Positions 11,971-24,042 of a DNA stretch of 25,156 nt are shown here, piece after piece; position 1 is the first letter of the stretch, and every line of letters begins with the position of its first letter. Source of the stretch: a virus. The notes below the pieces were generated by a model that saw nothing but the letters and a program-made list of their open reading frames with translations, was not told the origin of the DNA and did not search any database. The DNA lies in the IMG/VR virus record IMGVR_UViG_3300018476_000040, positions 1 to 25,156 of that record; one strand, 5' to 3'. Position numbers and translations under genes: made by a program.

Positions 11971-12462
11971 ATGTCCCGTAAGTCTCGCGCCCTCGCCGCC
12001 CCCGTCGCCGCCTTCGTCGACGCGCCCGACACCCCCACCCTTGCCGACGTGCTCGAAGCCCTCCCGGGCGTCGATGCCGAAGTCGCCGAGGACGTCGCTC
12101 GGAAGGGCTCGGTGGTCCGCGCCACCTACAAGAAGCTCTACGCGGCTCGCGCCTCCGAGGCGGGCCTGCCGAAGGCGGCCCAGCGCTCCTGCTGGGATTG
12201 GCTCGCCCAGCAGTTGGCTGGCGAAGTCCTCGTCGACGGCAAGTTCGTCGAGTCCCGGTTCCGCGCGCTGCTCGACGCGAACGGCGTCCGGAACGACCAC
12301 TGGGGCACCGGCGAGAAGCGCACCAAGGGCTGGGAAGGCCGCCTCCGAATGACCGGGCGGCTGGCGCTCCAGAAGGTGGTGGCCAAGCAGGGCTTCCTCG
12401 CCACGGCGGACGGCGAGGAACTCCCCGCCCCCGAGGACTTCGTCGCCAAGCACACCCACTGA
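11971..12462 (+). CDS. GW-GR-RMTGR family protein, paralogue 1
   Basis: A 163-aa protein, one of four related proteins in the window. Residues 1-45 are an Ala/Pro/Asp-rich lead. Residues 47-142 are the shared domain: VVRATYKKLYAARA, a helix with CWDWLAQQL, a hydrophobic helix FRALLDANGV, and the signature KGWEGRLRMTGR at 119-130. It is followed by LALQKVVAKQGFL. The many Arg residues around the signature suggest nucleic-acid contact, but no known domain is recognised and the fold is unknown. The ATG has TAGGAGC 7-8 bases upstream. It is the first gene behind its own promoter and is followed by a 9-bp GCAA hairpin. I remember similar hypothetical proteins in other phages, none with a known role. 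Confidence 0.85.
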   Translation: MSRKSRALAAPVAAFVDAPDTPTLADVLEALPGVDAEVAEDVARKGSVVRATYKKLYAARASEAGLPKAAQRSCWDWLAQQLAGEVLVDGKFVESRFRALLDANGVRNDHWGTGEKRTKGWEGRLRMTGRLALQKVVAKQGFLATADGEELPAPEDFVAKHTH

Positions 12463-12471
12463 GGAACCACC

Positions 12472-12493
12472 GGGCGGGGCGCAAGCCCCGCCC
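12472..12493 (+). terminator. GC hairpin with GCAA loop after paralogue 1
   Basis: GGGCGGGGC, loop GCAA, GCCCCGCCC: a 9-bp all-GC stem capped by a GNRA tetraloop, 9 bases after the stop codon. No T tract follows (ATCCTCCC), so it may stabilise the mRNA 3' end or weaken transcription rather than stop it fully. Confidence 0.6.
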
Positions 12494-12507
12494 ATCCTCC
12501 CAGCATC

Positions 12508-12521
12508 GCGAAACTTTTCGC
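12508..12521. promoter_or_regulatory. GCGAAA-N2-TTTCGC dyad
   Basis: GCGAAACTTTTCGC lies directly against the ribosome site AAGGAG of the 26-aa gene. It is a near copy of the perfect palindrome at 12675-12690, so one DNA-binding protein could bind both. As RNA it could also fold weakly. Confidence 0.45.
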
Positions 12522-12533
12522 AAGGAGAAAATC

Positions 12534-12614
12534 ATGGAACCAGTGGAAATCGAGTTCGTTATCTGCGTACTTCTCACCACCGCTGTTACGTTCTTCGCGG
12601 CGTGGAATTGGTGA
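12534..12614 (+). CDS. 26-aa membrane microprotein
   Basis: Reads MEPVEIEFVICVLLTTAVTF and ends FAAWNW. A good ribosome site, AAGGAG, lies 8 bases upstream. Residues 7-23 form one hydrophobic segment with an acidic N-terminus and Trp residues at the end, typical of a small inner-membrane peptide. It is too short for any family call. It sits after paralogue 1 and its hairpin, and could be co-transcribed by read-through. The ribosome site and the clear hydrophobic pattern are the evidence; the function is unknown. Confidence 0.6.
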   Translation: MEPVEIEFVICVLLTTAVTFFAAWNW

Positions 12615-12978
12615 AACCGCACGCGGGTACTGGAACTGGGCGCGCGAATGCGCCCAACCACGCGCAGCGCGCGTTGCGAAACGTTTCGCAGAGTACGGCC
12701 GAAAGTACGTGCCGCGTACGCCGAAACAGCGGCCCCGGAACATGGCGCGTTGCGCGTGGAGACGTTTCGTATGGCGGTGCCTCCCGTATTCCGGTGTCCG
12801 AGGTTTTTCCTGCGGCTGGCCCAGCCTCTCTCCCCCGCGCCGCACCGAAAATAGCTGCCCCTCCTCCCCCACGCGTGGCTCCCTTCTCCCCCCACTTCGG
12901 ACCCCCCGGGACGGGAGGAACGGAGGTACTGAAAGGACTGACAAGCGCAACGTTCGCCACCTCCACTCGAAATCCTAC
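12615..12978. other. GC-rich region with palindromes, no clear gene
   Basis: About 360 bases before the next promoter. It holds the 16-base perfect palindrome TGCGAAACGTTTCGCA (12675-12690), inside a 21-base element that matches 11727-11747 at 18 positions. A third, interrupted copy lies at 12745-12770. GTACG words cluster at 12690-12720, and C-rich runs fill 12820-12910. A 123-codon frame from a GTG at 12611 exists but has low-complexity content. Operator or origin function is possible. Confidence 0.5.
12675..12690. repeat. 16-base perfect palindrome
   Basis: TGCGAAACGTTTCGCA is its own reverse complement. Related half-sites occur at 12508-12521, 12761-12770 and 11727-11747. The arrangement suggests sites for a dimeric DNA-binding protein. 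Confidence 0.75.
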
Positions 12979-13007
12979 TTGACAGCACCCCCGTCCTGTG
13001 CTACAAT
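12979..13007 (+). promoter_or_regulatory. promoter of small-gene run
   Basis: TTGACA (12979-12984) plus GC, 17-base spacer ending GTGC, TACAAT (13002-13007). Start near 13014, 22 bases before the first ATG, so the leader is short. Confidence 0.85.
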
Positions 13008-13035
13008 CGTCGCACGGACCAACCCGGAGCAGAAC

Positions 13036-13323
13036 ATGCCGCACAAACGAGTCCAAGCCATCGAATACGACGCGGAGGCCGACGTCCTTTCGGTCGAGCA
13101 CTTCGATACCGTCGAACAAGCCTTCGCATGGTGCGAAGCCAAGCGCGGCGCTCCGCTCCTTGCGGGCGATACCGAGTTCGGCTACCAGCTGCAAACCGAG
13201 CAGGAACGCACCGACGGCATCGGCTTCCCGCCGCGCTGGTACGAAGTCCACGCCGTCGACGAGCACGGGAACATCGACTACCTCGAAGAATCCGACCACG
13301 AACAAGGGAGCTTCTTTCAATGA
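13036..13323 (+). CDS. 95-aa small early protein, unknown
   Basis: A small acidic soluble protein beginning MPHKRVQAIEYDAEADVLSV. The part HFDTVEQAFAWCEAKRG is a strand followed by a helix with the [ST]-x-E-x-A pattern that recurs in at least seven other small proteins here. A beta-rich part follows, with RWYEVHAVDEHGNIDYLEE. The ATG is preceded by CGGAGCAGAAC, the GGAGCA-type ribosome site used by most genes of this region. It is the first gene behind the promoter at 12979 and overlaps the next gene by four bases (ATGA). I know no function. Phage early genes of this size often encode host-takeover or anti-defence proteins, which is context only. Confidence 0.8.
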   Translation: MPHKRVQAIEYDAEADVLSVEHFDTVEQAFAWCEAKRGAPLLAGDTEFGYQLQTEQERTDGIGFPPRWYEVHAVDEHGNIDYLEESDHEQGSFFQ

Positions 13324-13577
13324 TCATCGCTTATTTGATGCCGCAAACCGCCGACGAGCCGCGCGACGGCCTTTCCTTCATTTCGGTGGCCCCGACCCAG
13401 CAGGAAGCCATCGAGAAGCTGGGCGCGCAAATCCGCCACGTTTACGAGGACGCGAAGATGATCGAATGGCATCTTCTCAATCAGGACGAACTTCCCCACG
13501 TTGTCGTGGTGTGGGAAAGCGAGGACGATAAGATCGAAGTCCGCGACTTCTTTTGGCTCCACGTGGCGGAGGACTAA
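13320..13577 (+). CDS. 85-aa small early protein, unknown
   Basis: Begins MIIAYLMPQTADEPRDGLSF, followed by SVAPTQQEAIEKLGAQIRHV, again a strand plus a helix with the E-A pattern, then VVVVWESEDDKIEVRDFFWL as a beta hairpin. It is acidic and soluble. The ATG overlaps the preceding TGA (ATGA), so it is translated from the upstream ribosomes; AAGGGAGC lies 10 bases before it. It probably has the same small alpha/beta build as its neighbour. No family is recognised. Confidence 0.8.
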   Translation: MIIAYLMPQTADEPRDGLSFISVAPTQQEAIEKLGAQIRHVYEDAKMIEWHLLNQDELPHVVVVWESEDDKIEVRDFFWLHVAED

Positions 13578-13579
13578 GC

Positions 13580-13753
13580 ATGAGCGAGGAGGAGAAGTTC
13601 TATAAGCGCATGAACTGCGCGATCGACGAGGTGAAAGATACCGTGGACCTTGTTGGTACCATTGGCTTATGGCTGGTGGGACTGGCTTTCGGTGGCGGCA
13701 CTATTCTGATCGTCGTTATAATGATCCTGAACAGGCTGGGGAAGACACTGTGA
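13580..13753 (+). CDS. 57-aa single-span membrane protein
   Basis: Begins MSEEEKFYKRMNCAIDEVKD, an amphipathic charged lead, followed by one hydrophobic helix at about residues 25-51 (IGLWLVGLAFGGGTILIVVI) and a basic tail NRLGKTL. The positive tail suggests the C-terminus is cytoplasmic. The ATG lies two bases after the preceding stop, with GGAGGA as ribosome site. The stop overlaps the next start as GTGA. It pairs with another single-span protein directly downstream. A holin or a membrane-level exclusion protein is possible, but no lysis enzyme is nearby. Confidence 0.75.
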   Translation: MSEEEKFYKRMNCAIDEVKDTVDLVGTIGLWLVGLAFGGGTILIVVIMILNRLGKTL

Positions 13754-13851
13754 AACCAGCCCCCACCATCGACTTCGCTGTGTGGCTATTCGTCACGCTG
13801 ATCGCATTCCTACTGAAGACCGCACACAAATGGAGCAAACATGACAACTGA
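13750..13851 (+). CDS. 33-aa membrane microprotein
   Basis: A GTG-started frame coupled by GTGA to the previous gene. It reads KPAPTIDFAVWLFVTLIAFL and ends LKTAHKWSKHDN. Residues 7-23 are one membrane-spanning helix with a basic C-terminal tail. It overlaps the next gene by 11 bases. Overlaps on both sides and the hydrophobic pattern make it likely real. Together with the 57-aa protein it forms a two-gene membrane pair; partner interaction is a guess. Confidence 0.6.
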   Translation: MKPAPTIDFAVWLFVTLIAFLLKTAHKWSKHDN

Positions 13852-14068
13852 AACCGACGCCGACACCGTGAAGGCCTACATTATCGTCAACAAGGGCGCG
13901 CAGGAGCTTTACAACGTCGATTCCCTCGACGAAGTAGCGCGAATTTGCTGCAACGAGCGCCCCCAGAACGAAGTGCGCGACGACATTCGGTGGTCGCTCA
14001 AGCGAACTGGCCGGTGGGACCGCGAGGACGGCGTTATCATCGTCATTCTCGCCACGCAGCCCGAATAG
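13841..14068 (+). CDS. 75-aa small early protein, unknown
   Basis: Begins MTTETDADTVKAYIIVNKGA and has NVDSLDEVARICCNERPQNE, a strand-helix pair like its neighbours, then RWSLKRTGRWDREDGVIIVI. Two adjacent Cys residues are present without a metal-site pattern. GGAGC lies 7 bases before the ATG (GGAGCAAACATG). It ends the first small-gene transcript; the next promoter begins 5 bases after its stop. No function is known to me. Confidence 0.75.
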   Translation: MTTETDADTVKAYIIVNKGAQELYNVDSLDEVARICCNERPQNEVRDDIRWSLKRTGRWDREDGVIIVILATQPE

Positions 14069-14072
14069 ATAC

Positions 14073-14101
14073 TTGACAGCGCCACCGCGACGTGGTACAA
14101 T
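14073..14101 (+). promoter_or_regulatory. promoter of second small-gene run
   Basis: TTGACA (14073-14078) plus GC, 17-base spacer ending GTGG, TACAAT (14096-14101). Start near 14108, 20 bases before the ATG at 14128. Confidence 0.88.
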
Positions 14102-14127
14102 TCCAAATCGACAACGGAGCACAGAAC

Positions 14128-14334
14128 ATGGGTAAGCCAGTAATCATCGTAGAGTTCGAGCCAGACGATTCGGTCACATGGAACAGCGTGGGATGGGGCA
14201 AGCTCCCCGTCCTTATGGAGGCGGCCCGAGCAGCTATTCGGTTGGGCAGCAACCCGAAGGAAGTGATCGAACTCCTGCAAGCGGCGGGGTTCGAGGTGGT
14301 GGAAATGGTAGCCCCCAGCGCAACGGAGCACTGA
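14128..14334 (+). CDS. 68-aa small early protein, unknown
   Basis: Begins MGKPVIIVEFEPDDSVTWNS and continues with LPVLMEAARAAIRLGSNPKE and VIELLQAAGFEVVEMV. This looks like strand, helix, helix and strand: a tiny alpha/beta protein. The ATG at 14128 has GGAGCACAGAAC directly upstream, the local ribosome-site pattern. An earlier in-frame ATG at 14092 lies within the promoter and cannot be used. First gene of its transcript. No family is recognised. Confidence 0.78.
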   Translation: MGKPVIIVEFEPDDSVTWNSVGWGKLPVLMEAARAAIRLGSNPKEVIELLQAAGFEVVEMVAPSATEH

Positions 14335-14338
14335 ACAC

Positions 14339-14527
14339 ATGTTCCAAGTCATCACAAGCAGCAACGACGGGACCTACTACCCGATCGCCTTCTTCGCCGA
14401 GGAGGAGGACGCACGGGACTTCGTAGAGCGTGAGAAGTCCAAGTGGAAGAACATCTACTTCTCGCAGTGCACTTCGGCGATCATGGTTCACACCCTTGTG
14501 GACCAGAGCAAGTGGAGAATCAGATGA
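14339..14527 (+). CDS. 62-aa small early protein, unknown
   Basis: Begins MFQVITSSNDGTYYPIAFFA, followed by the helix EEEDARDFVEREKSKWKNI and a C-terminal strand SAIMVHTLVDQSKWRIR. The strand-[ST/A]-EE-x-A-helix build matches the neighbouring small proteins. GGAGCACTGAACAC precedes the ATG. It overlaps the next gene by four bases (ATGA). The function is unknown. Confidence 0.78.
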   Translation: MFQVITSSNDGTYYPIAFFAEEEDARDFVEREKSKWKNIYFSQCTSAIMVHTLVDQSKWRIR

Positions 14528-14757
14528 GCTACGTGGCATTCGTGAGCGACGAGCGCGAAGGCGAATCCTACGTGAACGGCCCGTTCGACAGCTTCGAGCA
14601 GGCGTGCAAGTGGGCCAACGAATTCGTGGTGGACAAGGCTAAAGAATACGGCCTCCACGCCAACGCGGACGGGGGCTCTTTCGCGTGGATAAGAGCGGAG
14701 GGCGACGAAGATGAAGTCGTGCTGGAAGTCACCGTTATGACACTTATCGCCCCCTAA
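14524..14757 (+). CDS. 77-aa small early protein, unknown
   Basis: Begins MSYVAFVSDEREGESYVNGP, followed by FDSFEQACKWANEFVVDKAK, then SFAWIRAEGDEDEVVLEVTV as a C-terminal beta hairpin. It is acidic. It shows the clearest form of the shared pattern: strand, turn with Gly-Pro-Phe, [ST]-x-E-x-A, helix, strands. The ATG overlaps the preceding stop. It is the last gene before a strong hairpin that separates it from convergent genes. No function is known to me. Confidence 0.78.
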   Translation: MSYVAFVSDEREGESYVNGPFDSFEQACKWANEFVVDKAKEYGLHANADGGSFAWIRAEGDEDEVVLEVTVMTLIAP

Positions 14758-14763
14758 GCACAG

Positions 14764-14801
14764 CGACGCCCCCGCTGGCCTTTCGGCTGGCGGGGGCGTC
14801 G
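14764..14801. terminator. bidirectional terminator hairpin
   Basis: CGACGCCCCCGC (14764-14775) pairs with GCGGGGGCGTCG (14790-14801), 12 bp, with a TTTC-centred loop of 14 bases. It lies between the ends of two converging genes, 6 bases after one stop and 9 from the other. T tracts are weak on both sides, so it may need Rho or act as a barrier. Confidence 0.7.
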
Positions 14802-14810
14802 TCGTATCTG

Positions 14811-15104
14811 TTAGTCTTCCAGTATGTTCTCGTCGAGAATGCGCCTGCACCCCGCCTCGTCGTGCGTAACCGCGTAATACAACATGTCGCGGAATGCCTG
14901 AACCGATGGGAACGGCACCTCGCGATGGAACCGCTCGACCATCCCGACGAACTGGTAGTGATAAGACATCAACGCCTCTTCTTCAGTGGCGTAAGGCCCG
15001 TTAGGTTCCACCTTCATGTTCTTCTCGGGATAGTAATACCACCCCTCTTCGCTTGGGCCAGCCCCGTGCGGGAAGTCCTTTTTGCCGTCGTGCCAGTAAA
15101 GCAT
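14811..15104 (-). CDS. 97-aa small protein, unknown
   Basis: Begins MLYWHDGKKDFPHGAGPSEE with GWYYYPEKNMKVEPNGPY. The helix ATEEEALMSYHYQFVGMVER shows the E-A pattern shared with the small rightward proteins, and a C-terminal helix with DMLYYAVTHDEAGC follows. The ATG at 15104 overlaps the preceding stop as TGATG. It forms a leftward two-gene unit with the 65-aa gene. Despite its opposite direction it seems to belong to the same protein group. No function is recognised. Confidence 0.75.
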   Translation of the reverse strand: MLYWHDGKKDFPHGAGPSEEGWYYYPEKNMKVEPNGPYATEEEALMSYHYQFVGMVERFHREVPFPSVQAFRDMLYYAVTHDEAGCRRILDENILED

Positions 15105-15301
15105 CAATCCTGCTCCCCGTTTTCCGTATCGCGCAACGTGATCGTAAGGCGCTGCGGCGGTGCGCCAACGAACGCGTCCTTCCTGACGTAGAACGAGCCG
15201 ATCTTCGCGCCCGAGCCGATCGTGGCTCTTACGTTGCTCACCACTTCCATGTAGCGAACAGCACCCTTTGTCTCTTTTTCCAGTACGAAATCGATCTTCA
15301 T
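15104..15301 (-). CDS. 65-aa conserved small phage protein
   Basis: Begins MKIDFVLEKETKGAVRYMEV and continues with a strand IGSFYVRKDAF and a final strand RLTITLRD. The layout (KxxFVLEKxTKGAVRY, then IGxxYVRKxA) is one I recall from many phage and prophage hypothetical proteins; no function is known to me. It should be a small all-beta protein. The ATG at 15301 has AAGGAGC 7 bases upstream; the frame is open earlier but those codons overlap the promoter. It is first in its leftward transcript and coupled to the 97-aa gene. Confidence 0.8.
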   Translation of the reverse strand: MKIDFVLEKETKGAVRYMEVVSNVRATIGSGAKIGSFYVRKDAFVGAPPQRLTITLRDTENGEQD

Positions 15302-15338
15302 GTCGTGCTCCTTACGCGGGCGGGATCGCCCATGGCCC

Positions 15339-15367
15339 ATTGTACCACAGGCGATCGCCGCTGTCAA
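15339..15367 (-). promoter_or_regulatory. leftward promoter with palindromic spacer
   Basis: TTGACA (15367-15362) plus GC, 17-base spacer, GTGG and TACAAT (15344-15339). The spacer contains the palindrome GGCGATCGCC, a possible operator between the two promoter hexamers. It starts 9 bases after the paralogue 2 stop. Confidence 0.85.
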
Positions 15368-15375
15368 GTACTACT

Positions 15376-16062
15376 TCACTCCTTGGGGAGGTAACGCTGC
15401 CGCCATTCCATCGGTGCCTCGAACGGCTCCTCCACCCCACTTTCGTGCGGCTTCATCAGGAACCCGGTCGTTGCGACCTTCTTCTGCAGCGCAACTCGCC
15501 CCGTCATCCGGAACCGGCCCTCCCATCCGCGGGTTCGGCTGATCCACTTCGAATGGTCGATTCCGTTCACGTTGAGCAGCGCGACAAAGGCGCGAATGTC
15601 GATCTTCCCCTTGTCATCGAGGCAGAACTTGGCGATCTCTTGTGCCAGCCAGTCCCAGTTCGACCGCTTGGCCGCCTTGTTGGTCAGCCCTTGCGCCGCC
15701 GCGTTCTCCGCGTAGCGCTTCTTGAACTTGACCTTCACCACGCCGCCCTTCTCCTCCTCCTCGGGGGGCTGTTCCTCCGCGTCCTCGGGCTGGATTTCCT
15801 CGGGCTGTTCCTCGTCCGCCTCGTCCAGTTCCGCCTCGGTGGGCGGCTTTTCGGCGTCCTCACGGAACCGGGCGACCTTGCCCTCCTCGATGGCGCGTGC
15901 CATAAGGTCCAGGCCTTCCTGCGTAGGTTCCAACACGATCACTTCCTGATCGACGTTCCCGCCCTGATTCGCCTCGGCGGGAAGGACGCCCGCGCGGAAC
16001 TTCTCGGCAGTTCGTGCCTGTGCTTCCGCCTTCGTCTCTTTGCGCTTGCTATTACGTGCCAT
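15376..16062 (-). CDS. GW-GR-RMTGR family protein, paralogue 2
   Basis: A 228-aa, three-part protein. Residues 1-25 are basic (MARNSKRKETKAEAQARTAE). Residues 30-68 contain VIVLEPTQEGLDLMARAIEE. Residues 69-105 are a nearly pure Glu/Pro/Asp linker. Residues 107-204 are the shared domain: VVKVKFKKRYAENAA, NWDWLAQEIAKF, the helix FVALLNVNGI, and RGWEGRFRMTGR at 178-189, then VALQKKVATTGFL. It is closest to paralogue 1, sharing WDWLAQ and the R-M-T-G-R block. The ATG at 16062 is preferred because GGAGC lies 8 bases before it; the GTG two codons earlier is too close. It is the only leftward paralogue and has its own promoter. Function unknown; a linker plus Arg-rich domain would fit a DNA- or RNA-binding protein. 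Confidence 0.85.
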   Translation of the reverse strand: MARNSKRKETKAEAQARTAEKFRAGVLPAEANQGGNVDQEVIVLEPTQEGLDLMARAIEEGKVARFREDAEKPPTEAELDEADEEQPEEIQPEDAEEQPPEEEEKGGVVKVKFKKRYAENAAAQGLTNKAAKRSNWDWLAQEIAKFCLDDKGKIDIRAFVALLNVNGIDHSKWISRTRGWEGRFRMTGRVALQKKVATTGFLMKPHESGVEEPFEAPMEWRQRYLPKE

Positions 16063-16104
16063 GTTCACTGCTCCAGAACGGTCGCACCATCGCGACCTGA
16101 CTTA

Positions 16105-16133
16105 ATTTTAACACGGGACAGTGGGGCTGTCAA
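16105..16133 (-). promoter_or_regulatory. leftward promoter of paralogue 2
   Basis: TTGACA (16133-16128) plus GC, 17-base spacer ending GTGT, TAAAAT (16110-16105). Start near 16098, 36 bases before the ATG. It stands back to back with the rightward promoter at 16191, about 57 bases apart. Confidence 0.85.
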
Positions 16134-16190
16134 GTACTACTTCGTATGTTCCGTGCAGAAGCACCTCCCCATGAACATGTGAAAAAATAC

Positions 16191-16219
16191 TTGACAGCCG
16201 CCCCGCGCCATGTTAGAGT
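16191..16219 (+). promoter_or_regulatory. promoter of zinc-ribbon/HTH run
   Basis: TTGACA (16191-16196) plus GC, 17-base spacer ending ATGT, TAGAGT (16214-16219). The -10 is weaker than in other copies. A small stem CCACA-GCA-TGTGG (16228-16240) lies at the 5' end of the leader. Confidence 0.78.
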
Positions 16220-16258
16220 GAGGCGTACCACAGCATGTGGGAATTACGGAGCAAAGTA

Positions 16259-16474
16259 ATGGGATACGTAATGGCAGCAGGAACCTGCTTTGGGTGCAAA
16301 GGAGTGTTCATGTTCAACCCGCTGCGCGTGCCTTCAATCCGCGTCAACGGGGTGAAGGAGCCGATCTGCAAGACGTGCGTGGATCGCATAAACCCGCAGC
16401 GCAAGAAGAACGGGGTACCCGAAATAGTGCCCCATAAGGATGCTTATGACGCGGCTGACGAAGGCGAACTCTAA
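16259..16474 (+). CDS. 71-aa zinc-ribbon-like protein
   Basis: Two Cys pairs, C10-F-G-C13 and C37-K-T-C40, are 23 residues apart and enclose a beta-type stretch. This is the pattern of a small zinc ribbon that could bind nucleic acid or protein. The C-terminal part is charged and acidic. The start at 16259 is chosen for CGGAG 7-8 bases upstream; an ATG 8 codons earlier lacks a ribosome site. It overlaps the next gene by 29 bases. First gene of the transcript from 16191. The partner and function cannot be read. Confidence 0.75.
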   Translation: MGYVMAAGTCFGCKGVFMFNPLRVPSIRVNGVKEPICKTCVDRINPQRKKNGVPEIVPHKDAYDAADEGEL

Positions 16475-16616
16475 GATCCCCATCTGCAGCAAGTGCGGGC
16501 GGGTATTGAAGGGGCGAGTCCCTCTCGACGCCACCGACATTATATGCTTCTTCTGTGACAACGATCCGGGAGAAGATGCGGAGGAGAAGCTAACAAATTG
16601 GAAGGACGTGAAGTGA
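16446..16616 (+). CDS. 56-aa zinc-ribbon protein
   Basis: Starts MTRLTKANSKIPICSKCGRV. Cys14-x2-Cys17 and Cys34-x2-Cys37 (CFFC) give a compact zinc ribbon with a 16-residue spacing and a typical Gly after the first pair. The C-terminus is acidic, ending in NWKDVK. AAGGA lies about 6 bases before the ATG, within the upstream gene that it overlaps by 29 bases. The good metal-site pattern shows it is real although it is short and nested. Function unknown. Confidence 0.7.
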   Translation: MTRLTKANSKIPICSKCGRVLKGRVPLDATDIICFFCDNDPGEDAEEKLTNWKDVK

Positions 16617-16639
16617 TACGAACCCTGAGGGTATGAGAC

Positions 16640-16804
16640 ATGAGCATTACATATCGTGGCTACACAATCAATCAAAACTCAGACAGATGGTATGAGATCA
16701 GTCTGAATGGAAAATTGATTGCCGTGCGGAAAAGTGAAGAGCAAGCCTATAGCTTCATAGATGCTCAAAAGCGCGGCGACACCAACTGGAAGGACAAGCG
16801 ATGA
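16640..16804 (+). CDS. 54-aa small protein, unknown
   Basis: Reads MSITYRGYTINQNSDRWYEI, then SLNGKLIAVRKSEEQAYSFI, ending NWKDKR. The order is beta hairpin, beta hairpin, then a helix with SEEQA, the short motif seen in the other small proteins of the window. GAGGG lies about 8 bases before the ATG. The stop overlaps the next start as ATGA. The C-terminal NW-K-D-K resembles the end of the previous gene, possibly by chance. No family is recognised. Confidence 0.65.
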   Translation: MSITYRGYTINQNSDRWYEISLNGKLIAVRKSEEQAYSFIDAQKRGDTNWKDKR

Positions 16805-16995
16805 GCCAAGCCGAAAGAGACGTGATCGAGTTGGAACTGATGATCGATAGGAACACTATCGACAAGGTGCTCGATGCGCTGGTAAGAATCTGCAGCGAGA
16901 AGGCAGACCACATCGAAGAGAACTATTCAGACCCCGATCTCGCGGAACGCTGGAGGGCGATCGCCAAGAGAATCGACGCCGTGGAGGGTCTGTGA
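16801..16995 (+). CDS. 64-aa helical protein, unknown
   Basis: Begins MSQAERDVIELELMIDRNTI, with helix KVLDALVRICSEKADHIEE and a final helix RWRAIAKRIDAVEGL. It is all-helical and acidic. The ATG overlaps the previous stop (ATGA) and its own stop lies 2 bases before the next ATG. A small dimeric helical protein is plausible. No function is known to me. Confidence 0.7.
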   Translation: MSQAERDVIELELMIDRNTIDKVLDALVRICSEKADHIEENYSDPDLAERWRAIAKRIDAVEGL

Positions 16996-16997
16996 AC

Positions 16998-17369
16998 ATG
17001 GCAGTTAAGATGATAACGGTGCAGTTCGATCTGGACATCGAACTATTCACCAAGATACTTGCGCACTCGAATCAGGGTGTCAAGTTTTCGGTCTACGGCG
17101 ACGATAAGCCGCAACGCATCGAGGAACCAGAGCGCCAACTGACGCTCGCACCACCGAAGAAAGGAGTAAGGCACGTGCTTCTACCGTACATGAAGAAGCA
17201 CCCTGACAAGACCTTTACCACCAAGGAAATGATAGCGATAGCCTCCAATTTCGGCTACAACGAAAGTGCGGTGTATAACGCCGTACACAACATGCATCGC
17301 GACGGATTACTCCGTCGTTACACCCCGGGTAAGTACCGGATTTCAAAAGCAGGGATAACACATGGCTAA
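16998..17369 (+). CDS. winged-helix DNA-binding protein
   Basis: A 123-aa protein with two parts. Residues 1-50 are a beta/alpha lead (MITVQFDLDIELFTKILAHS). Residues 57-120 look like a winged helix: RHVLLPYMKKHPDKTFTTKE, then helix MIAIASNFGYN, recognition helix ESAVYNAVHNMHRDGLLRR, and the wing YTPGKYRISKAG. Such domains bind DNA in small phage regulators. The ATG at 16998 is chosen over the GTG at 16992 because GGAGGG lies 9 bases before it. It overlaps the HTH gene downstream by 8 bases, so the two regulators are made together. Its targets are unknown; the dyads at 12675 or 20451 are candidates. Confidence 0.7.
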   Translation: MAVKMITVQFDLDIELFTKILAHSNQGVKFSVYGDDKPQRIEEPERQLTLAPPKKGVRHVLLPYMKKHPDKTFTTKEMIAIASNFGYNESAVYNAVHNMHRDGLLRRYTPGKYRISKAGITHG

Positions 17370-17610
17370 AGGACCGTTACGTTTATACAATTCGTACAAC
17401 TTCGTCGATAAGGACCCGGTGATCGATAAGGTCCGCACGCTTATTAAGCGGGAAGGTTGGTCACCTAAAGACATACACGAGAAATCGGGGGTGTCGCCAA
17501 CCACACTCCATAACTGGTTTGAGGGCAAAACTAAGCGCCCCCAGTATTGCACCATTATGGCAGTGGTTAGCGCTATGGGCTACAGACAGGCATTCGTTAA
17601 GAAGAGCTAG
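17362..17610 (+). CDS. Cro/CI-type helix-turn-helix regulator
   Basis: An 82-aa protein with an XRE-like five-helix domain at residues 22-75. KVRTLIKREGWSPKDIHEKS forms helices 1-2, GVSPTTLHNWFEGKTKRPQY holds the recognition helix (TTLHNWF), and CTIMAVVSAMGY is the closing helix. The lead NSYNFVDKDPVIDK recurs in phage HTH proteins I remember. It lacks a protease or dimerisation domain, so it resembles Cro more than CI. No divergent repressor is seen, so a lysogeny switch is not indicated. A strong hairpin follows the gene. Targets are unknown. Confidence 0.82.
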   Translation: MAKGPLRLYNSYNFVDKDPVIDKVRTLIKREGWSPKDIHEKSGVSPTTLHNWFEGKTKRPQYCTIMAVVSAMGYRQAFVKKS

Positions 17611-18040: not shown

Positions 18041-18041
18041 A

Positions 18042-18314: not shown

Positions 18315-18496
18315 TGATAAGACCGTTTTACGTATCACGAAATGAGGATGACAAGGGCAAAGCCACTTACACCGTAGTGGATTATTACTTACACCGCCCG
18401 ATTTGTGTGATGATCCTTGACAGGGACAGCACCAACGAATTATACGCCGATCGCATTGCGAAGGCGCTCAACGAAATGCTACACCCGGAGAAGTAA
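18314..18496 (+). CDS. 60-aa small protein, unknown
   Basis: Begins MIRPFYVSRNEDDKGKATYT and continues with VVDYYLHRPICVMILDRDST and helix YADRIAKALNEMLHPEK. The order strand, strand, strand, helix suggests a small alpha/beta protein. The ATG at 18314 overlaps the previous stop as TGATG. A promoter-like sequence lies within its second half. No function is recognised. Confidence 0.7.
   Translation: MIRPFYVSRNEDDKGKATYTVVDYYLHRPICVMILDRDSTNELYADRIAKALNEMLHPEK
18417..18446 (+). promoter_or_regulatory. possible internal promoter
   Basis: TTGACA (18417-18422) plus GG, an 18-base spacer and TATACG (18441-18446). It would start about 45 bases before the ATG at 18498. The spacer is longer than in the other copies and TGn is missing, so it may be chance. 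Confidence 0.3.
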
Positions 18497-18497
18497 C

Positions 18498-19202
18498 ATG
18501 ACAAAGGTAGTCGATATCATGGAATTGGTGTTCCCAGCATACAGACCCGTTCTTACAGAAATGTTAGACCGTGAAGGTATGAACGGAGACACGACGGTCG
18601 CGCAGGTTTTCGCTCACTTCCTGCCCGACAACATAAAGTCCCCAGAGGAAAGGGTGGCCCTCGGCGCTTTGGGCGGTGCTTTGAACAAGCACACCGCAAA
18701 TAAGTTCAGCCCCAAGCTGAGCTTAACCAAGCACTGCGAAATCCTGGCGTTATACCGCATGGGTTATAACGCTGATTTGTTAGCGAAAGCGTACGGAGTA
18801 GACCGAAAGACGGTCACTCACATGTATAACCCACAGTCCCCCAAATACAAGGGAGTGAAGGGACAAGAAAAGATAATGGGCACCGATGGGCTAATTCGGG
18901 TGTACGTAACCGATGTAGTTCTAGCCCACATCAAGAACTTTGAGACCCCGGTCGAGGAACTAAGCAACAAATACGCCAATAAGAAAGAGGGCGTACATCT
19001 TGTGCAGGGAATTAACTGCACATTCAAGCATCGCCTCGAAATTCGCTGGTGCGAACCGGACGAGGTGGAAGTCAAGGGTTGGTACTACAAGGACATGGAC
19101 GGCGACTTCCCTGAGGCTTGGATTCGCGGCGACGACGATTCCATGAAGAATAGCCAGGCATGCTTAAATTTCGCCCTTAAAGATATTTCAGACCCATTGT
19201 AG
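18498..19202 (+). CDS. 234-aa protein with HTH segment
   Basis: The ATG at 18498 follows GGAGAAGTAAC and starts MTKVVDIMELVFPAYRPVLT. Residues 76-112 hold a probable helix-turn-helix: LTKHCEILALYRMGYNADLL, then AKAYGVDRKTVTHMYNP, like the HTH of transposase- or sigma-related factors. The C-terminal half is mixed, with YVTDVVLAHIKNFE and WYYKDMDGDFPEAWIRGDDD. No catalytic motif is seen, so it is likely a DNA-binding protein or regulator. It ends a coupled gene run; the next promoter starts 20 bases later. Its HTH resembles that of the 69-aa protein at 20568 in layout. Confidence 0.7.
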   Translation: MTKVVDIMELVFPAYRPVLTEMLDREGMNGDTTVAQVFAHFLPDNIKSPEERVALGALGGALNKHTANKFSPKLSLTKHCEILALYRMGYNADLLAKAYGVDRKTVTHMYNPQSPKYKGVKGQEKIMGTDGLIRVYVTDVVLAHIKNFETPVEELSNKYANKKEGVHLVQGINCTFKHRLEIRWCEPDEVEVKGWYYKDMDGDFPEAWIRGDDDSMKNSQACLNFALKDISDPL

Positions 19203-19222
19203 CACTGTACTGGAGGCCAATC

Positions 19223-19251
19223 TTGACAGGGACCCCGGGCCGTGCTATACT
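19223..19251 (+). promoter_or_regulatory. promoter of paralogue 3
   Basis: TTGACA (19223-19228) plus GG, 17-base spacer ending GTGC, TATACT (19246-19251). Start near 19258, 35 bases before the ATG. Both hexamers are near consensus. Confidence 0.88.
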
Positions 19252-19292
19252 AAGACACGGCGAGGGCAACAATAAAAACAGGAGAACTAGGA

Positions 19293-19841
19293 ATGACTAA
19301 CCGAATCAACGGCATTCCTGTTGACGGAGGAATAGCATACAAGGAGGGTGTAATGGCTGGCGACTGCCCTTACATGGAAGAAGACCCCGACTTCAATCGA
19401 TGGAATGAGGAATGGGATGCGGCAGCGGACGACCACGAAGAACACACCAAGACACAACCCAAAGTGGGATCGGTTGTTACGAACCGGTATAGAGCGCTAT
19501 ATTCGGAAAGCGGACACCCCACCCATTGCGGAGATGCTCTTGCCACCCTCCTCAATTCCCTATGCAGCAATAAGGCCGGTACAAACCTCGAGCTATTTGA
19601 AAAAATTTGTGCCGCCAACGGAGTTGATCTTACGAAGTACAATCGTACCACTAAAGGATGGCAAGGACGACTCCGAATGACGGGACGTAACCTGCTGGCG
19701 AAGCGAGTCGCAGCAAACCACGGCAGGTTATACATGCCGGAAGAGATGGGAGGTGATTTCTACCAACTAGACGAGGACTGGGTTTACACTACGCAGAACA
19801 AATACAAGCCAAAAACGGAGCAACAAGATGTCACAGGGTGA
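19293..19841 (+). CDS. GW-GR-RMTGR family protein, paralogue 3
   Basis: A 182-aa protein. Residues 1-57 are an acidic lead with DPDFNRWNEEWDAAADDHEE. Residues 58-145 are the shared domain: VVTNRYRALYSESG, a helix with CGDALATLLNSL, LFEKICAANGVDL, and KGWQGRLRMTGR at 121-132, followed by NLLAKRVAANHGRLYMPEE. A Tyr/Lys-rich tail follows. AGGAG lies 8 bases before the first ATG; a second in-frame ATG at codon 21 has an even stronger AAGGAGGG. Two protein forms, 182 and 162 aa, are therefore possible. It lacks the WDWLAQ block of paralogues 1 and 2. It is first behind its own promoter and overlaps the next gene by 14 bases. Confidence 0.85.
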   Translation: MTNRINGIPVDGGIAYKEGVMAGDCPYMEEDPDFNRWNEEWDAAADDHEEHTKTQPKVGSVVTNRYRALYSESGHPTHCGDALATLLNSLCSNKAGTNLELFEKICAANGVDLTKYNRTTKGWQGRLRMTGRNLLAKRVAANHGRLYMPEEMGGDFYQLDEDWVYTTQNKYKPKTEQQDVTG

Positions 19842-20070
19842 ATTTTCGGTCTACCAGTTCTTCCCAAACGAGCAGTACGAAAAGGTGCGCGCGTTCGTAT
19901 CGGCGGAGGAAGCTGTAACCGCAGCAGAACACTACACCAACAACGTGGCCAGCCGAATGGGGCTGACCCAACGCGTGATTATCACCGACGGGGGTGATAA
20001 CATCGTATTCGAGTGGCTGCAAGGCAAGGGCATCGTATTCCCGCCCGACATGAGCAAGGAGCAAGCATGA
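19828..20070 (+). CDS. 80-aa conserved small phage protein
   Basis: Begins MSQGEFSVYQFFPNEQYEKV, then RAFVSAEEAVTAAEHYTNNV, then the strands QRVIITDGGDNIVFEWLQGK and GIVFPP. The VYQFF start, the F-V-S-x-EEA helix and the ITDGGD-x2-x-F-E-W strand pair are a set I recall from phages of alphaproteobacteria, still without a function. It is the best-formed member of the strand-EEA-helix-strand group in this window. GGAGCAAC lies before its ATG inside paralogue 3, and the stop overlaps the next ATG. Confidence 0.82.
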   Translation: MSQGEFSVYQFFPNEQYEKVRAFVSAEEAVTAAEHYTNNVASRMGLTQRVIITDGGDNIVFEWLQGKGIVFPPDMSKEQA

Positions 20071-20438
20071 ACGACAATTGGCAACACAAAGACGCGAAGG
20101 TCGATCTTACGGTCGACGACTTGCTCGCCATATTCATAGAGCAAGAGGCACCCGAGGTGGCTTGTGAGGCGATGAACGGCCCCTTTCGGTCATTCGTACA
20201 TTGGCTCCACGCGGCTCACCGGGCGAAAGCCGACCCCCAAGACGTTCGCAAGTCGCTGCTCGCCATCATTTCGTCCATGATAATGGAAACGTCCAAGCGG
20301 ATGGGCGAAATCGACGAGGAGGGTCGTAGAGTACCCATGGAAGTATGGATCGGTGAGCTTGTCTTGGATTTGCGCGACGAGCTAATCCACGACTTGGACA
20401 CTTATCAAAGAACCATACGGCGGCCCCCGGGCCACTGA
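20067..20438 (+). CDS. 123-aa helical protein, unknown
   Basis: Begins MNDNWQHKDAKVDLTVDDLL and is mostly helical, with FIEQEAPEVACEAMNGPFRS, LLAIISSMIMETSKRMGEID and a C-terminal helix LVLDLRDELIHDLDTYQ. It is soluble and charged. The ATG overlaps the previous stop (ATGA), with AAGGAGC upstream. It ends the transcript that begins with paralogue 3; a hairpin-forming repeat pair starts 13 bases after its stop. No family is recognised. Confidence 0.75.
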   Translation: MNDNWQHKDAKVDLTVDDLLAIFIEQEAPEVACEAMNGPFRSFVHWLHAAHRAKADPQDVRKSLLAIISSMIMETSKRMGEIDEEGRRVPMEVWIGELVLDLRDELIHDLDTYQRTIRRPPGH

Positions 20439-20450
20439 CCTCGAAGACGG

Positions 20451-20482
20451 CGTACGGTACGTCTGAGGCGGCGTACCGTACG
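20451..20482. repeat. inverted pair of CGTACNGTACG dyads
   Basis: CGTACGGTACG (20451-20461) and its exact reverse complement CGTACCGTACG (20472-20482), with a 10-base gap. Each copy is itself a dyad around one base. Together they can form an 11-bp stem. A third copy lies at 20541-20551. Confidence 0.75.
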
Positions 20483-20540
20483 TAAGGCAGCGGGGCGGTG
20501 AACCGCACCACCTATAGCGGTAGCGGCCTACCCCCATTCA

Positions 20541-20551
20541 CGTACCGTACG
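20541..20551. promoter_or_regulatory. third CGTACCGTACG operator-like dyad
   Basis: Identical to the copy at 20472-20482 and 17 bases before the ATG of a small HTH protein. Three identical dyads within 101 bases ahead of an HTH gene suggest autoregulation. Confidence 0.6.
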
Positions 20552-20567
20552 TTCAGTGAGGAACTAC

Positions 20568-20777
20568 ATGGGTTCAGATAGTCACAAATTAAGTTACGGC
20601 CAGCGCCGCGAGATCGTCAAGATGTACGAAGAGGGGCACAAGCTGGAATACATAGCTGCGTTGTATGGTGTGAGGCGTGAATATCCCAGCAAGCTAGCTC
20701 TTCGCTGGGGGTCCAAGCCTCGAATGCCAGGCATGTGTAAGAACCGGAACGTATTGAAGACCAGAAAAACAACTTGA
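20568..20777 (+). CDS. 69-aa helix-turn-helix protein
   Basis: Begins MGSDSHKLSYGQRREIVKMY, continuing EEGHKLEYIAALYGVRREYP: a three-helix HTH like that of Hin-type or transposase-type DNA-binding domains. The tail is very basic (SKLALRWGSKPRMPGMCKNR, then KTRKTT). The ATG at 20568 has GAGGA 5 bases upstream; a GTG start four codons earlier is less likely. Its stop codon lies within the -35 of the next promoter (20774), so the gene abuts the replication transcript. Three dyads lie directly upstream and are its likely sites. It may regulate itself or the PrimPol gene. Confidence 0.72.
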   Translation: MGSDSHKLSYGQRREIVKMYEEGHKLEYIAALYGVRREYPSKLALRWGSKPRMPGMCKNRNVLKTRKTT

Positions 20778-20802
20778 CAGGCACCCCGGCCTGTGGTATA
20801 CT
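20774..20802 (+). promoter_or_regulatory. promoter of PrimPol/helicase gene
   Basis: TTGACA (20774-20779) plus GG, 17-base spacer ending GTGG, TATACT (20797-20802). The -35 overlaps the stop of the HTH gene. It drives the replication protein through a folded leader of about 105 bases. Confidence 0.88.
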
Positions 20803-20805
20803 CTT

Positions 20806-20877
20806 CCTTGCACCACCCCCGTGTGCAAGGAGAAGTCGCAGCGAGGAATCAAGGCAGGCCAGCCTCCTCGCTGCGAC
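20806..20877 (+). promoter_or_regulatory. structured leader RNA of PrimPol gene
   Basis: Two stems. The first, TTGCAC (20808-20813) with GTGCAA (20823-20828), would lie at the very 5' end of the transcript. The second is a 13-bp perfect stem, GTCGCAGCGAGGA (20835-20847) with TCCTCGCTGCGAC (20865-20877), with a 17-base loop. About 40 bases separate it from the ATG. It could protect the mRNA, bind a protein or act as an attenuator. Confidence 0.7.
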
Positions 20878-20916
20878 AATCTTTGAGAAGGGTGGGAACC
20901 TAAGGACGGGGAATAG

Positions 20917-23460
20917 ATGCCAGAGATCATCAAGGGTGGCTTCGCACTAAGCGAGGCCGATGAAAAACTCGTCAATCACCAGCGAAAAATCACCTCAGAC
21001 GTAAATAGCGGTTTTATTCAGGTCGGGGCGGTATTTCTGCAGATGTCGGGGAAGAATCCGTACGAATCGGATTGGTTCCGTCGTAAATTCAGAGACACTA
21101 ATCTTCAGGAGTGGATAGACAACCCGCGAATGCGGGACTTAAACCTCGGGTTCAACCTGCAGTTCGGCTGGTTGGACATGGACATGGACTCCGAAGACCC
21201 GCGCTACAACGAATGCATCGTTAAGGCGATCAAGTTCCTCGGGATCGACAGTCGGTTCTCTTTCGGTAGGCAATCTAAGGGCGTTCCATCCCACGTTCTA
21301 GTTCAGCTTTACGACGCAGACCAAGCGAACTATGACGACTTAAAGAAATTCGAACCTAAGGGGTTCCGCGTCGACGGGAAGTTCTTTAAGTGTGAACTCC
21401 GTTCGATGGCCCCGCTCCCCGATAACGCTCAAGCCAACACAATCAAGGAATCGCGGCAAACTGTCATGCCCGGTTCTATCTATGTCCACAAGTTGAAGTC
21501 CGGGGAGTATGACCTTTCGGTTTGGTACGGCCCCGATGGTAAAGTTGCCACCCACATAAGCGAAATAGCGTCCACTACTTCCCGCAAGGTCGAGTTCTCA
21601 CGGTTAATCACCGCCATCGCATTCGGCACGTTCCTGTACGTAATCCAACCCCACTGGCAGGAAGGCGGAAGACAAGCACTGGCTAATAAGATCGCTGGGT
21701 TCCTGGCCCGCGTGGTTCGCGACAGCAAGGCAGTTAACGACGGCGAACATACGTCCCAAAGCACGTTCTGCCCCCTGTCTACCCCTGAAATGGCAGAATC
21801 CCTGATCGACTTCATCTGTGCTGACATGGGTGATATCGAAGCTTTCATGCGGAAGCGTACCTTCCGTGACGCGATGAAAAAGTTGGAGGCGAACCCTGAT
21901 GCAAAAATCCCCGGATGGGTGGTGCTGGAAGCCACAGTGGGAATCGAGTCCAAGATTGCCCTCCAAACCGTCCTTATGCCGGGGGTGGACGTCTCGCCGC
22001 TTACTGTATTGGGTGACACCTTCCTATACGATGAAACATCTGACGCTTTTATTGATCGTGATTTTTTCAGAGCTGGTGCTGATAAATTTGTATTCGACGG
22101 TTCCGCGCTTGATCGCCGTTATCGCAACGTATTTATCGAACTAGGCGGCAAGCAAAAGCCCATCTGGAAGGTGTTTGAGCAGTCCAAGCTACGCCGAAAT
22201 GTGAGTATAAGTCTATGCAACCCTGATCTTCCGCAAGGAATTGTGTACCGGCAGGCAAGATCGGGCACTATTCTTAATGAGGATCAGGAAAGCGCACCGG
22301 GCGATGGCTCCATAACAATTTATAACACATGGCGTGGTTGGCCAATAAGTCCCGCCGTTAATCCGAATCCAGAACTTCTAAAAGAGTGCATGGACAAGTG
22401 GAACAAGATGGCTGGTTATCTGTGCCAAGACAACAAGGTGCAAGTAGGCTGGCTGTGGAAGTGGGTTGCCCACACCGTAAAGGAACCGGGGCAGAAGCAA
22501 CAGATCGCGCCCATATTCGTCGGTGGACAGGGAGTAGGAAAGTCATTCTTCAGTGACTACTTCCTTGGCAAGTTGTTCGGGAACCTGTACGGACAAGCGT
22601 CACCGAAAGTACTCGAGGGTGATTTTTCGGTCGAGCCATTCCTGAACAAGATGTTTGTGTTCATGGACGAGGCGAAAATCTACACCGAAAGAGCACAGGA
22701 CGAAGTTAAGAAGATAATTCGCGCAACCAGTCTTCCAGGTGCGGTGAAGTACGAATCATCGCGCACCCACCCCATTTACGCTCGCATGATCTTCGCGTCC
22801 AACCGCTTTGACATGAACATGGGGATGAGCAACGACCGAGCTATCTATTTCATTAAGACGTACGACCAAGACTTCGTGGGCAAAACCGCTAACGGGTTTA
22901 AGTCGTGGGTCCAGACTCTAAAGCCATTCTACGAGGAATACTTCGCCTTCATGGACCGGCTCGATGTAAAAGAGCATTACATGTACTTGCTCATGAACAC
23001 CGAGGTTTCCCGTGAGGAAATCGAGGACAATTCTACGTCTAGTGCAAACGATAGCCACATCGTAGAATCTAACATGTCCAATCCCAAGCGGATAGCGAAG
23101 TACATCCTTGAAAATGACAGAATCTTCGAGGATATCGGGATAGAGGAGCCGTTCCCGATCGAGGAACTGTATAAACGCATTATCGATACCTGCGACATGA
23201 CCGGCCTTAGACTGCGGAACCGTGACGATATATTTAACGAATTCAAGTCGGCTGACCTTGTGGAGTGGACCTTGTTTAAGGGCCGAAAGCTTCTCAGGTT
23301 CAAGTATCGGGTTGGAACTCTAGTCGATCTGTTCGGCGATCACATCGGGATGAAGTTTGAGTGTAATCACACGTTATCCGAGCAAGATTACGGCGAAAAT
23401 AAGTGTCAGATGGGAGAAGGTAAGCCGTGGCGCGGCAGAACAAATCGCTTCGGCATATAG
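20917..23460 (+). CDS. primase-polymerase/SF3 helicase fusion
   Basis: An 847-aa replication protein. The N-terminal part (about 30-230) looks like an archaeo-eukaryotic-type PrimPol: WLDMDMD at 85-91 gives the metal-binding Asp residues, PSHVLVQ at 124-130 the Ser-x-His-type motif, and CELRS at 159-163 a third acidic motif. Residues 230-500 link to a D5-like helicase. GGQGVGKS at 536-543 is Walker A, VFMDEA at 581-586 Walker B, and FASNRF at 626-631 the SF3 sensor motif, followed by NDRAIYF with the expected Arg. A C-terminal wing part follows. It should prime and unwind phage DNA at the origin. The ATG lies about 8 bases after AAGGACGGGG. Own promoter, folded leader. The helicase is certain; the PrimPol part is likely. 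Confidence 0.9.
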   Translation: MPEIIKGGFALSEADEKLVNHQRKITSDVNSGFIQVGAVFLQMSGKNPYESDWFRRKFRDTNLQEWIDNPRMRDLNLGFNLQFGWLDMDMDSEDPRYNECIVKAIKFLGIDSRFSFGRQSKGVPSHVLVQLYDADQANYDDLKKFEPKGFRVDGKFFKCELRSMAPLPDNAQANTIKESRQTVMPGSIYVHKLKSGEYDLSVWYGPDGKVATHISEIASTTSRKVEFSRLITAIAFGTFLYVIQPHWQEGGRQALANKIAGFLARVVRDSKAVNDGEHTSQSTFCPLSTPEMAESLIDFICADMGDIEAFMRKRTFRDAMKKLEANPDAKIPGWVVLEATVGIESKIALQTVLMPGVDVSPLTVLGDTFLYDETSDAFIDRDFFRAGADKFVFDGSALDRRYRNVFIELGGKQKPIWKVFEQSKLRRNVSISLCNPDLPQGIVYRQARSGTILNEDQESAPGDGSITIYNTWRGWPISPAVNPNPELLKECMDKWNKMAGYLCQDNKVQVGWLWKWVAHTVKEPGQKQQIAPIFVGGQGVGKSFFSDYFLGKLFGNLYGQASPKVLEGDFSVEPFLNKMFVFMDEAKIYTERAQDEVKKIIRATSLPGAVKYESSRTHPIYARMIFASNRFDMNMGMSNDRAIYFIKTYDQDFVGKTANGFKSWVQTLKPFYEEYFAFMDRLDVKEHYMYLLMNTEVSREEIEDNSTSSANDSHIVESNMSNPKRIAKYILENDRIFEDIGIEEPFPIEELYKRIIDTCDMTGLRLRNRDDIFNEFKSADLVEWTLFKGRKLLRFKYRVGTLVDLFGDHIGMKFECNHTLSEQDYGENKCQMGEGKPWRGRTNRFGI

Positions 23461-23475
23461 ATATTCAAGGGGTAC

Positions 23476-23504
23476 TTGACAGCCGGTCGCGGGTGTGGTA
23501 GGAT
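23476..23504 (+). promoter_or_regulatory. promoter of paralogue 4
   Basis: TTGACA (23476-23481) plus GC, 17-base spacer ending GTGG, TAGGAT (23499-23504). It begins 16 bases after the PrimPol stop. The leader to the ATG at 23638 is about 127 bases, the longest of the set. Confidence 0.85.
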
Positions 23505-23524
23505 GCAGATGATAGGGCAGCACT

Positions 23525-23633
23525 TGGACTTCGGTCCATATGAACCTTCAAAAGCCCCACCCGACAGGTTGTGGGGACGGCTCCGGGGTAAGGACTGCTA
23601 AGTCCCGGAGAGATCAAACCCCAAGAGGAAGTC
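23525..23633 (+). promoter_or_regulatory. structured leader RNA of paralogue 4
   Basis: Three stems: TGGAC-TTCG-GTCCA (23525-23538, a UUCG tetraloop), CCCCAC (23555-23560) with GTGGGG (23571-23576), and CTCCGGG (23581-23587) with CCCGGAG (23604-23610), which has an inner GGACT/AGTCC option. GACTTC in stem 1 (23527-23532) is complementary to GAAGTC (23628-23633), next to the ribosome site AGAGGAA. A switch between the two pairings is possible. Confidence 0.6.
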
Positions 23634-23637
23634 TAAC

Positions 23638-24042
23638 ATGACCGAAGAGACCGAAGTCAAGACCACCAAGTCGATCGTTCCGTCGAAGTACGCTGGTCGT
23701 TACAAGAACGGCGGCGAAGACGAACTGGCGCAGTTCATCAAGGCGCAGTGCGTCAGCGAGGGCAACTTCCACTTCTCCAAGTTCTTTGAACTGATGGCGA
23801 AGAACGGGATCGCCCAGGATAAGGTCGATCATTACGCCAATCAGGTCGCCGAAAAGCGACACGGCGCAGAAGGCCGCGCTCGCATGACCCTCCGCAACAT
23901 GCTCGCCACGTTCGTTCGCAAGAACGGCAAGGCGATCGCTCTCGACGGCAGTGAAGTACCGGTGAACCTCCCCAAACCGGCCCTCACCGGGGCGGCGAAG
24001 GCTGCACAGGAAGCTTCCACGGCCCAAGAGGCTGCCGAGTAA
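23638..24042 (+). CDS. GW-GR-RMTGR family protein, paralogue 4 (divergent)
   Basis: A 134-aa protein. Residues 12-100 are the shared domain in its most divergent form: IVPSKYAGRYKNGGEDELAQ, FHFSKFFELMAKNGIAQDKV, and HGAEGRARMTLR at 75-86, where the usual GW becomes HGA and the last Gly becomes Leu. Then follow NMLATFVRKNGKAIALDGSE and an Ala/Glu-rich tail. AGAGGAA lies about 8 bases before the ATG. The gene has its own promoter, a long folded leader and two hairpins after it, so it is strongly insulated, as fits a highly expressed single gene. Codon use looks regular. Function unknown. Confidence 0.82.
   Translation: MTEETEVKTTKSIVPSKYAGRYKNGGEDELAQFIKAQCVSEGNFHFSKFFELMAKNGIAQDKVDHYANQVAEKRHGAEGRARMTLRNMLATFVRKNGKAIALDGSEVPVNLPKPALTGAAKAAQEASTAQEAAE

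Follow-up and report, generated by a model that had tools for sequence, protein, structure and literature searches.

Why would one phage keep four diverged copies of the same small domain? The DNA analysed here, called the window, is a whole IMG/VR record (IMGVR_UViG_3300018476_000040), a 25,156-base fragment whose near-complete relatives measure 37-48 kb. An earlier note made from the sequence alone had described four paralogues of an uncharacterised domain on both strands, each with its own terminal additions and each the first gene behind its own promoter, and had proposed that every copy has a task and that the domain binds nucleic acid, perhaps as a silencer, sponge or decoy. We find that the family is real, old and multi-copy, that it is tied to the gene module of 2-aminoadenine (Z) genomes, in which this base stands in for adenine, and that it is almost confined to phages with that module; its members are putative accessory proteins of phages with modified DNA.

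Four homologous copies of a basic domain

The four open reading frames, and the two genes that flank the last of them, are given below, with orthologues in Ochrobactrum phage vB_OspP_OH (OH).

11971..12462, plus strand: copy A, 163 aa; domain at about 12106-12423; short acidic C-terminus; orthologue of OH p04
15376..16062, minus strand: copy B, 228 aa if started at ATG and 230 if started at the upstream GTG (16068); domain at about 15436-15747
19293..19841, plus strand: copy C, 182 aa; domain at about 19467-19745; acidic N-terminus; orthologue of OH p15
20917..23460, plus strand: directly 5' of copy D, primase-polymerase/helicase of the replication module (PHROG DNA primase, 7e-17); orthologue of OH p22
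23638..24042, plus strand: copy D, 134 aa; domain at about 23668-23958; Ala/Glu-rich C-terminus; orthologue of OH p23
24153..24698, plus strand: directly 3' of copy D, Gam-like protein (PHROG 2378)

The signature of the domain reads KGWEGRLRMTGR in copy A, RGWEGRFRMTGR in copy B, KGWQGRLRMTGR in copy C and HGAEGRARMTLR in copy D. Copies B-D are 31-48% identical to copy A over the aligned parts, and the aligned copies have in common, among other positions, D76, N104-G105, G120, G123-R124, R126-M127-T128 and R130 (copy A numbering). D76, N104, G123, R124 and M127 are invariant among 80 sequences, and the family core (D, N-G, G-R-x-R-M and a hydrophobic pattern) is present in all four window copies. 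A hidden Markov model (HMM) seeded with the four copies and iterated over relatives recovered all four in the window and no fifth, with E values of 5e-26 to 2e-38, which excludes chance and makes the copies homologous. Model and alignment thus agree with the description of four paralogues on both strands. The terminal additions differ as described, with acidic N-termini on B and C (that of B long, with a net charge of -15) and an Ala/Glu-rich tail on D, whereas the family domain is basic, with a median net charge of +6.

Promoters and leaders

A near-consensus sigma-70-type site lies upstream of each copy, bearing out the claim that every copy is the first gene behind its own promoter.

11862..11890, plus strand: promoter-like site of copy A, TTGGCA-17-TACAAT
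16105..16133, minus strand: promoter-like site of copy B, TTGACA-17-TAAAAT, extended -10
19223..19251, plus strand: promoter-like site of copy C, TTGACA-17-TATACT, extended -10
23476..23504, plus strand: promoter-like site of copy D, TTGACA-17-TAGGAT, extended -10

The window holds 19 promoter-like sites, against 6.6 expected in shuffles. Because the strong copies, about 12 in the window, also head other genes, this promoter type is shared beyond the family. Family genes are nevertheless preferred: 53 of 95 of them in the window and 72 related loci are preceded by a site at no more than 250 bp, versus 152 of 1063 other genes, an odds ratio of 7.6, which carries more weight than the nominal p of 1e-18 because the contigs and loci are related. 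The stricter pattern TTGACA-N14-TGN-TANNNT, with a GC-rich spacer, occurs at twelve sites between window positions 1515 and 24162 on both strands and 352 times in 1.02 Mb of relatives, and is absent from shuffled sequence and from 254 kb of random viral contigs. A dyad (operator) within the promoter spacer was also considered; complementarity over 299 promoters was 0.34 versus 0.31 expected, a slight excess on which we make no claim. The ORF at 17362-17610, which from its sequence alone resembles an XRE-type helix-turn-helix regulator, would be an equal candidate binder of any such dyad.

A position as first gene behind strong promoters in an early region, together with the acidic N-terminal extensions of B and C and the varied appendages, would suit small host-takeover or counter-defence proteins, diversified by duplication, that bind factors of the host or block its nucleases. 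We consider this quite unlikely, since the core is strongly conserved among phages of Alpha- to Gammaproteobacteria and orthologues are kept, unlike typical fast-changing inhibitors, and since in bacteria the homologues are joined to a nuclease.

The leader of copy D (window 23505-23637, 133 nt) has a folding energy of -42.8 kcal/mol and contains a structured element of about 95 nt that is near-identical in one relative (L072). The element has no Rfam match and is absent from the other copy-D leaders examined, which measure 36-53 nt. RNA-binding regulators of phage transcripts could be imagined from such an element, from the basic charge and from the place of each gene at the head of an operon; given that most copy-D leaders lack the element, that it belongs to no Rfam family and that the sole fused enzyme found is a DNA endonuclease, we regard this reading as very improbable.

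Relatives and paralogue groups

Among 50,697 phage records, only phage OH (two records) gave a clear match, while IMG/VR yielded 72 loci of the GW-x-GR-x-RM family. In 25 long contigs and OH (37-48 kb), the number of copies per genome was four in 8, three in 15, two in 2 and one in 1, so that 23 of 26 near-complete relatives carry three or four. A FastTree phylogeny of 130 domains resolved clean clades for B (support 0.998) and D (0.94); B branches with A in a joint split (0.79) that takes in 53 of the 56 members of A, and the recovery of group C was weak (34 of 37 members, support 0.42). In the most plausible reading, A, C and D are long-standing paralogues, each maintained as an orthologous group, and B is a later duplicate confined to a subclade of relatives. 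The recurrence of groups A, C and D across near-complete relatives, with B marking a subclade, speaks for the proposal that each copy has a task.

A superfamily with PHROG 8941

Copy C gave a weak match (E 0.06) to a protein of Burkholderia phage Bm1, and the latter retrieved 47 matching records, mostly from phiVC8/VP2/VP5-type Vibrio phages, with Alteromonas phage ZP6, Stenotrophomonas phage BUCT555, Salmonella phage PMBT28 and relatives. This Bm1-type family corresponds to PHROG 8941, for which no function is annotated, and bears the motif HLN-x-G-[QM]-QRMN-x-GN. The earlier note was right to describe the family as hypothetical in other phages.

Compared directly with the PHROG 8941 model, the window proteins gave no match at E values up to 1. 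The window-family HMM reached LNxGQQRM members down to 5e-10, and the reverse search reached 1e-4. Alignment of the two profiles with hhalign gave 96.8% (E 2.6e-10, 73 columns), compared with 0.7-0.9% for reversed profiles; at the profile level, the window family and the LNxGQQRMNxGN family are shown to be homologous. In AlphaFold models of both branches (pLDDT 86 and 84), shorter helices lead into a long one that bears the motif. The LNxGQQRM branch is also multi-copy, with two copies in phiVC8, two in ZP6, three in Bm1 and four in contig L131.

Searches for known families and folds

Scans of the window proteins of the family with Pfam, NCBIfam, PADLOC and PHROG returned nothing over the curated cut-offs, and none matched a known characterised family. 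Several candidates were set aside: Pfam MCP_C on copy D (E 0.01, below cut-off) and PADLOC AbiEii on copy C (E 0.0099) were taken as chance, and PchB (phmmer against PDB sequences, E 0.075) and VSV L (profile search of the PDB, E 0.73) were rejected. For H-NS, Fis, HU and the like, no Pfam, PDB-sequence or fold match to the family was obtained. The PD-(D/E)XK nuclease models mREase_II and DUF6998 had no match in copies A, C and D, and copy B had no Pfam match. In the domains fused to long phage members nothing significant was found, zinc-finger-like matches in PMBT28 being below cut-off.

The paralogues do appear to share a fold, as the copy A model matches predicted structures of the OH paralogues. 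These, with one uncultured phage protein, were the only matches in a fold search of BFVD. Neither the copy A model (pLDDT 86) nor that of an LNxGQQRM member (pLDDT 84) had a match in the PDB; this excludes nothing, and it means that we draw no structural analogy to a DNA-binding protein.

Association with the Z-genome module

The LNxGQQRM branch includes phiVC8, a published Z phage (PMC8599892, PMC8342488), as well as ZP6 and PMBT28, in which PurZ genes are annotated. The MazZ of phage OH has been compared with Z-phage MazZ (PMC8342488), and the OH PurZ shows GSTGKG, a typical PurZ motif. We examined the association from both sides. In contigs chosen only by the domain (25 with the window family and 30 with the LNxGQQRM family, G023 not being counted twice), PurZ was found in 51 of 55 (24 of 25 and 27 of 30, respectively). 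In contigs of at least 24 kb chosen only by PurZ, the domain was found in 11 of the 15 tested. All ten reference phages with PurZ and DpoZ carried the domain, compared with none of 19 random viral contigs (an arbitrary 16-mer pick), which also lacked PurZ.

The exceptions are informative. In two PurZ-less domain contigs, G026 and G046, DpoZ lies close to the contig end, so purZ may lie just outside; a third, G027, has domain proteins in common with G026. The domain was absent from all five Z phages of other types that were tested, S-2L and four PurZ0 actinophages, and is therefore not needed for every Z genome. A DpoZ-2 match was lacking in S-2L, G067 and G068 and weak in G064 and the PurZ0 phages; DpoZ-2 fits the presence of the domain best and explains most of the exceptions. 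Two are real: G066 has PurZ and DpoZ and no domain copy in its 31-kb record, and G023 (L074), a distant 44.8-kb contig, has one domain copy and no PurZ or DpoZ match. In G023 an ADP-ribosylglycohydrolase gene follows the domain copy, and a scan of the neighbouring genes gave nothing explanatory.

Phage OH and the PurZ/DpoZ phages have PurZ, DpoZ, DatZ, helicase, Gam-like and p26 genes in common, and not capsid or portal genes, which places the domain in the replication/modification module. The Gam-like protein (PHROG 2378) is found, besides OH, in all nine PurZ/DpoZ phages tested. OH p26 (L002 12371-13234, PHROG 2402), an uncharacterised protein, likewise occurs in OH and in all nine PurZ/DpoZ reference phages tested. 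Because these phages share the whole replication module, the association may mean co-inheritance only, and this is the conservative reading. No purZ or dpoZ was seen among the window ORFs, the record ending before the region that carries them in OH and in complete relatives; the window is accordingly assigned to Z-type phages through its relatives. This link to 2-aminoadenine genomes was absent from the earlier note.

The same company would be expected of a replication-module protein without base specificity, that is, a DpoZ-type replisome accessory (a loader, clamp-like protein or primase partner) that makes mainly protein contacts and is linked to Z only indirectly. Its presence would then track DpoZ-2 rather than PurZ, as it does; copy D sits between the primase-polymerase and Gam-like genes, and OH p24, p26 and the helicase are similarly distributed. 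Three or four copies with their own promoters would however be unusual for a replisome subunit, and the bacterial nuclease fusion points to DNA, so that we hold this explanation to be unlikely.

A bacterial branch fused to a BisI-type nuclease

A search of 84,980 prokaryote species with the window-family pattern found no relative, while the LNxGQQRM pattern found ten loci, among them bacterial fusions and some phage-like contigs. Five of the ten encode two-part proteins, with the domain followed by a nuclease, in Caulobacter, Phenylobacterium, Brevundimonas and two Sphingomonadales assemblies; four of these five sources are metagenome assemblies.

L299 9746-10804, and L297, L295, L292 and L293: domain-nuclease fusions, putative alphaproteobacterial restriction enzymes

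The N-terminal parts of the fusions align with the window family at 96.4% in hhalign (E 1.4e-9, 71 columns; reversed 0.1%) and with the LNxGQQRM family at 99.5%. The fusions tested match mREase_II in PADLOC (Caulobacter, 2.5e-52) and DUF6998 in Pfam, and, among BisI-family enzymes of solved structure, Eco15I (2.5e-38) and NhoI (3.5e-20) match the nuclease part of the Caulobacter protein. The active-site residues of Eco15I are E49, D69, Q79 and K81 (PMC11347163), and all five fusions keep the same E-20-D-10-Q-2-K spacing; the predicted nuclease active site is thereby shown to be intact. One fusion had a weak integrase SAM-like match at its N-terminus. The arrangement is rare, matching in the seed genome only among 385 Alphaproteobacteria. 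A Rhizobium plasmid carries the domain without the nuclease; on this plasmid (pRspN1341a, L301 9730-13568) it stands beside Shedu, AbiGi, GIY-YIG and zeta-toxin genes, near mobF.

The fusions invite a bolder reading, in which the superfamily would be the first dedicated reader of 2-aminoadenine DNA, the phage paralogues would act as chromatin or transcription proteins of Z phages on DNA that host readers of the minor groove deal with poorly, and the bacterial BisI-type fusions would restrict such phages. We treat this as possible but rather doubtful. Because BisI domains themselves read modified cytosine (PMC11347163), the fused N-terminal domain need not be a modification reader.

Proposed role

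On balance, the family is probably a basic DNA-binding domain of the replication/base-modification module that serves Z-DNA in phages with PurZ and DpoZ. We infer DNA binding from the median charge of +6, from the company of the replication/base-modification module and from the fusion to a bacterial DNA endonuclease. The nucleic-acid binding of the earlier note thus gains indirect support, and its silencer, sponge or decoy roles find none that is specific.

In measurements with guanine, inosine and 2-aminopurine, Fis bound 56- to 225-fold less well when purines carried the 2-amino group (PMC3711457), which lies in the minor groove. By this reasoning, a Z genome plausibly needs DNA-organising proteins of its own. 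In the model that we propose, a small, helical, basic domain, duplicated long ago, would bind DNA, probably through the Arg/Asn-rich terminal helix with G-x-x-RM-[TN]-x-x-N-x-L-[RK]. The phage copies would serve DNA with an additional 2-amino group in its minor groove, to which Fis and other host proteins that read this groove should bind poorly; they might do so as architectural proteins encoded by the phage, or as accessory ones in transcription, replication or packaging. The varied acidic N-termini and tails of A-D may let each copy act with its own partners or at its own time. Most at risk in this model is the assumption that the domain recognises Z rather than DNA in general.

The papers on Z-genome phages consulted here deal with nucleotide enzymes (PurZ, DatZ, MazZ, DmtZ) and polymerases, and the organisation, transcription and packaging of 2-amino-DNA are not addressed in them. 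The present family, which exists in several copies and accompanies the PurZ/DpoZ module in phages whose capsid genes are unrelated, offers a concrete candidate for these functions. That a few bacteria have joined it to a modification-dependent nuclease hints at a possible defence against Z phages, and in fragments without purZ, such as the window, the family can be used to recognise PurZ/DpoZ phages.

Comparison with known systems

Bacterial nucleoid-associated proteins such as H-NS, Fis and HU are small, basic proteins of the abundant type with several paralogues, and the likeness of the present family to them would be one of role only. DpnI-type winged-helix readers fused to endonucleases (PMC11037411) have a similar design, in which a small DNA-reading domain is joined to an endonuclease, but no sequence or fold relation to our family was detected, and they read N6-methyladenine; HhiV4I has been reported as inactive on dZ DNA. 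The BisI family (Eco15I, NhoI) is closer, in that a few Alphaproteobacteria have our domain as the N-terminal half and a BisI-type nuclease as the C-terminal half, whereas the phage copies have no nuclease and BisI itself reads 5-methylcytosine.

PHROG 8941, with phiVC8 p36, ZP6 AZS06540 and Burkholderia phage Bm1 CDS_0067, belongs to the same superfamily and resembles the window family in its PurZ/DpoZ setting and multiple copies, but its domain is shorter and has LNxGQQRMNxGN where the window family has GWxGRxRMTGR. Of the named phages, OH (Wolominvirus OH) is the nearest; its three copies, p04, p15 and p23, are annotated as hypothetical and were not studied in the description of that phage (PMC7139368). 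It lacks a copy B, its genome encodes PurZ, DpoZ and proteins resembling MazG and DatZ, and p04, p15 and p23 are orthologous to A, C and D at matching genomic places.
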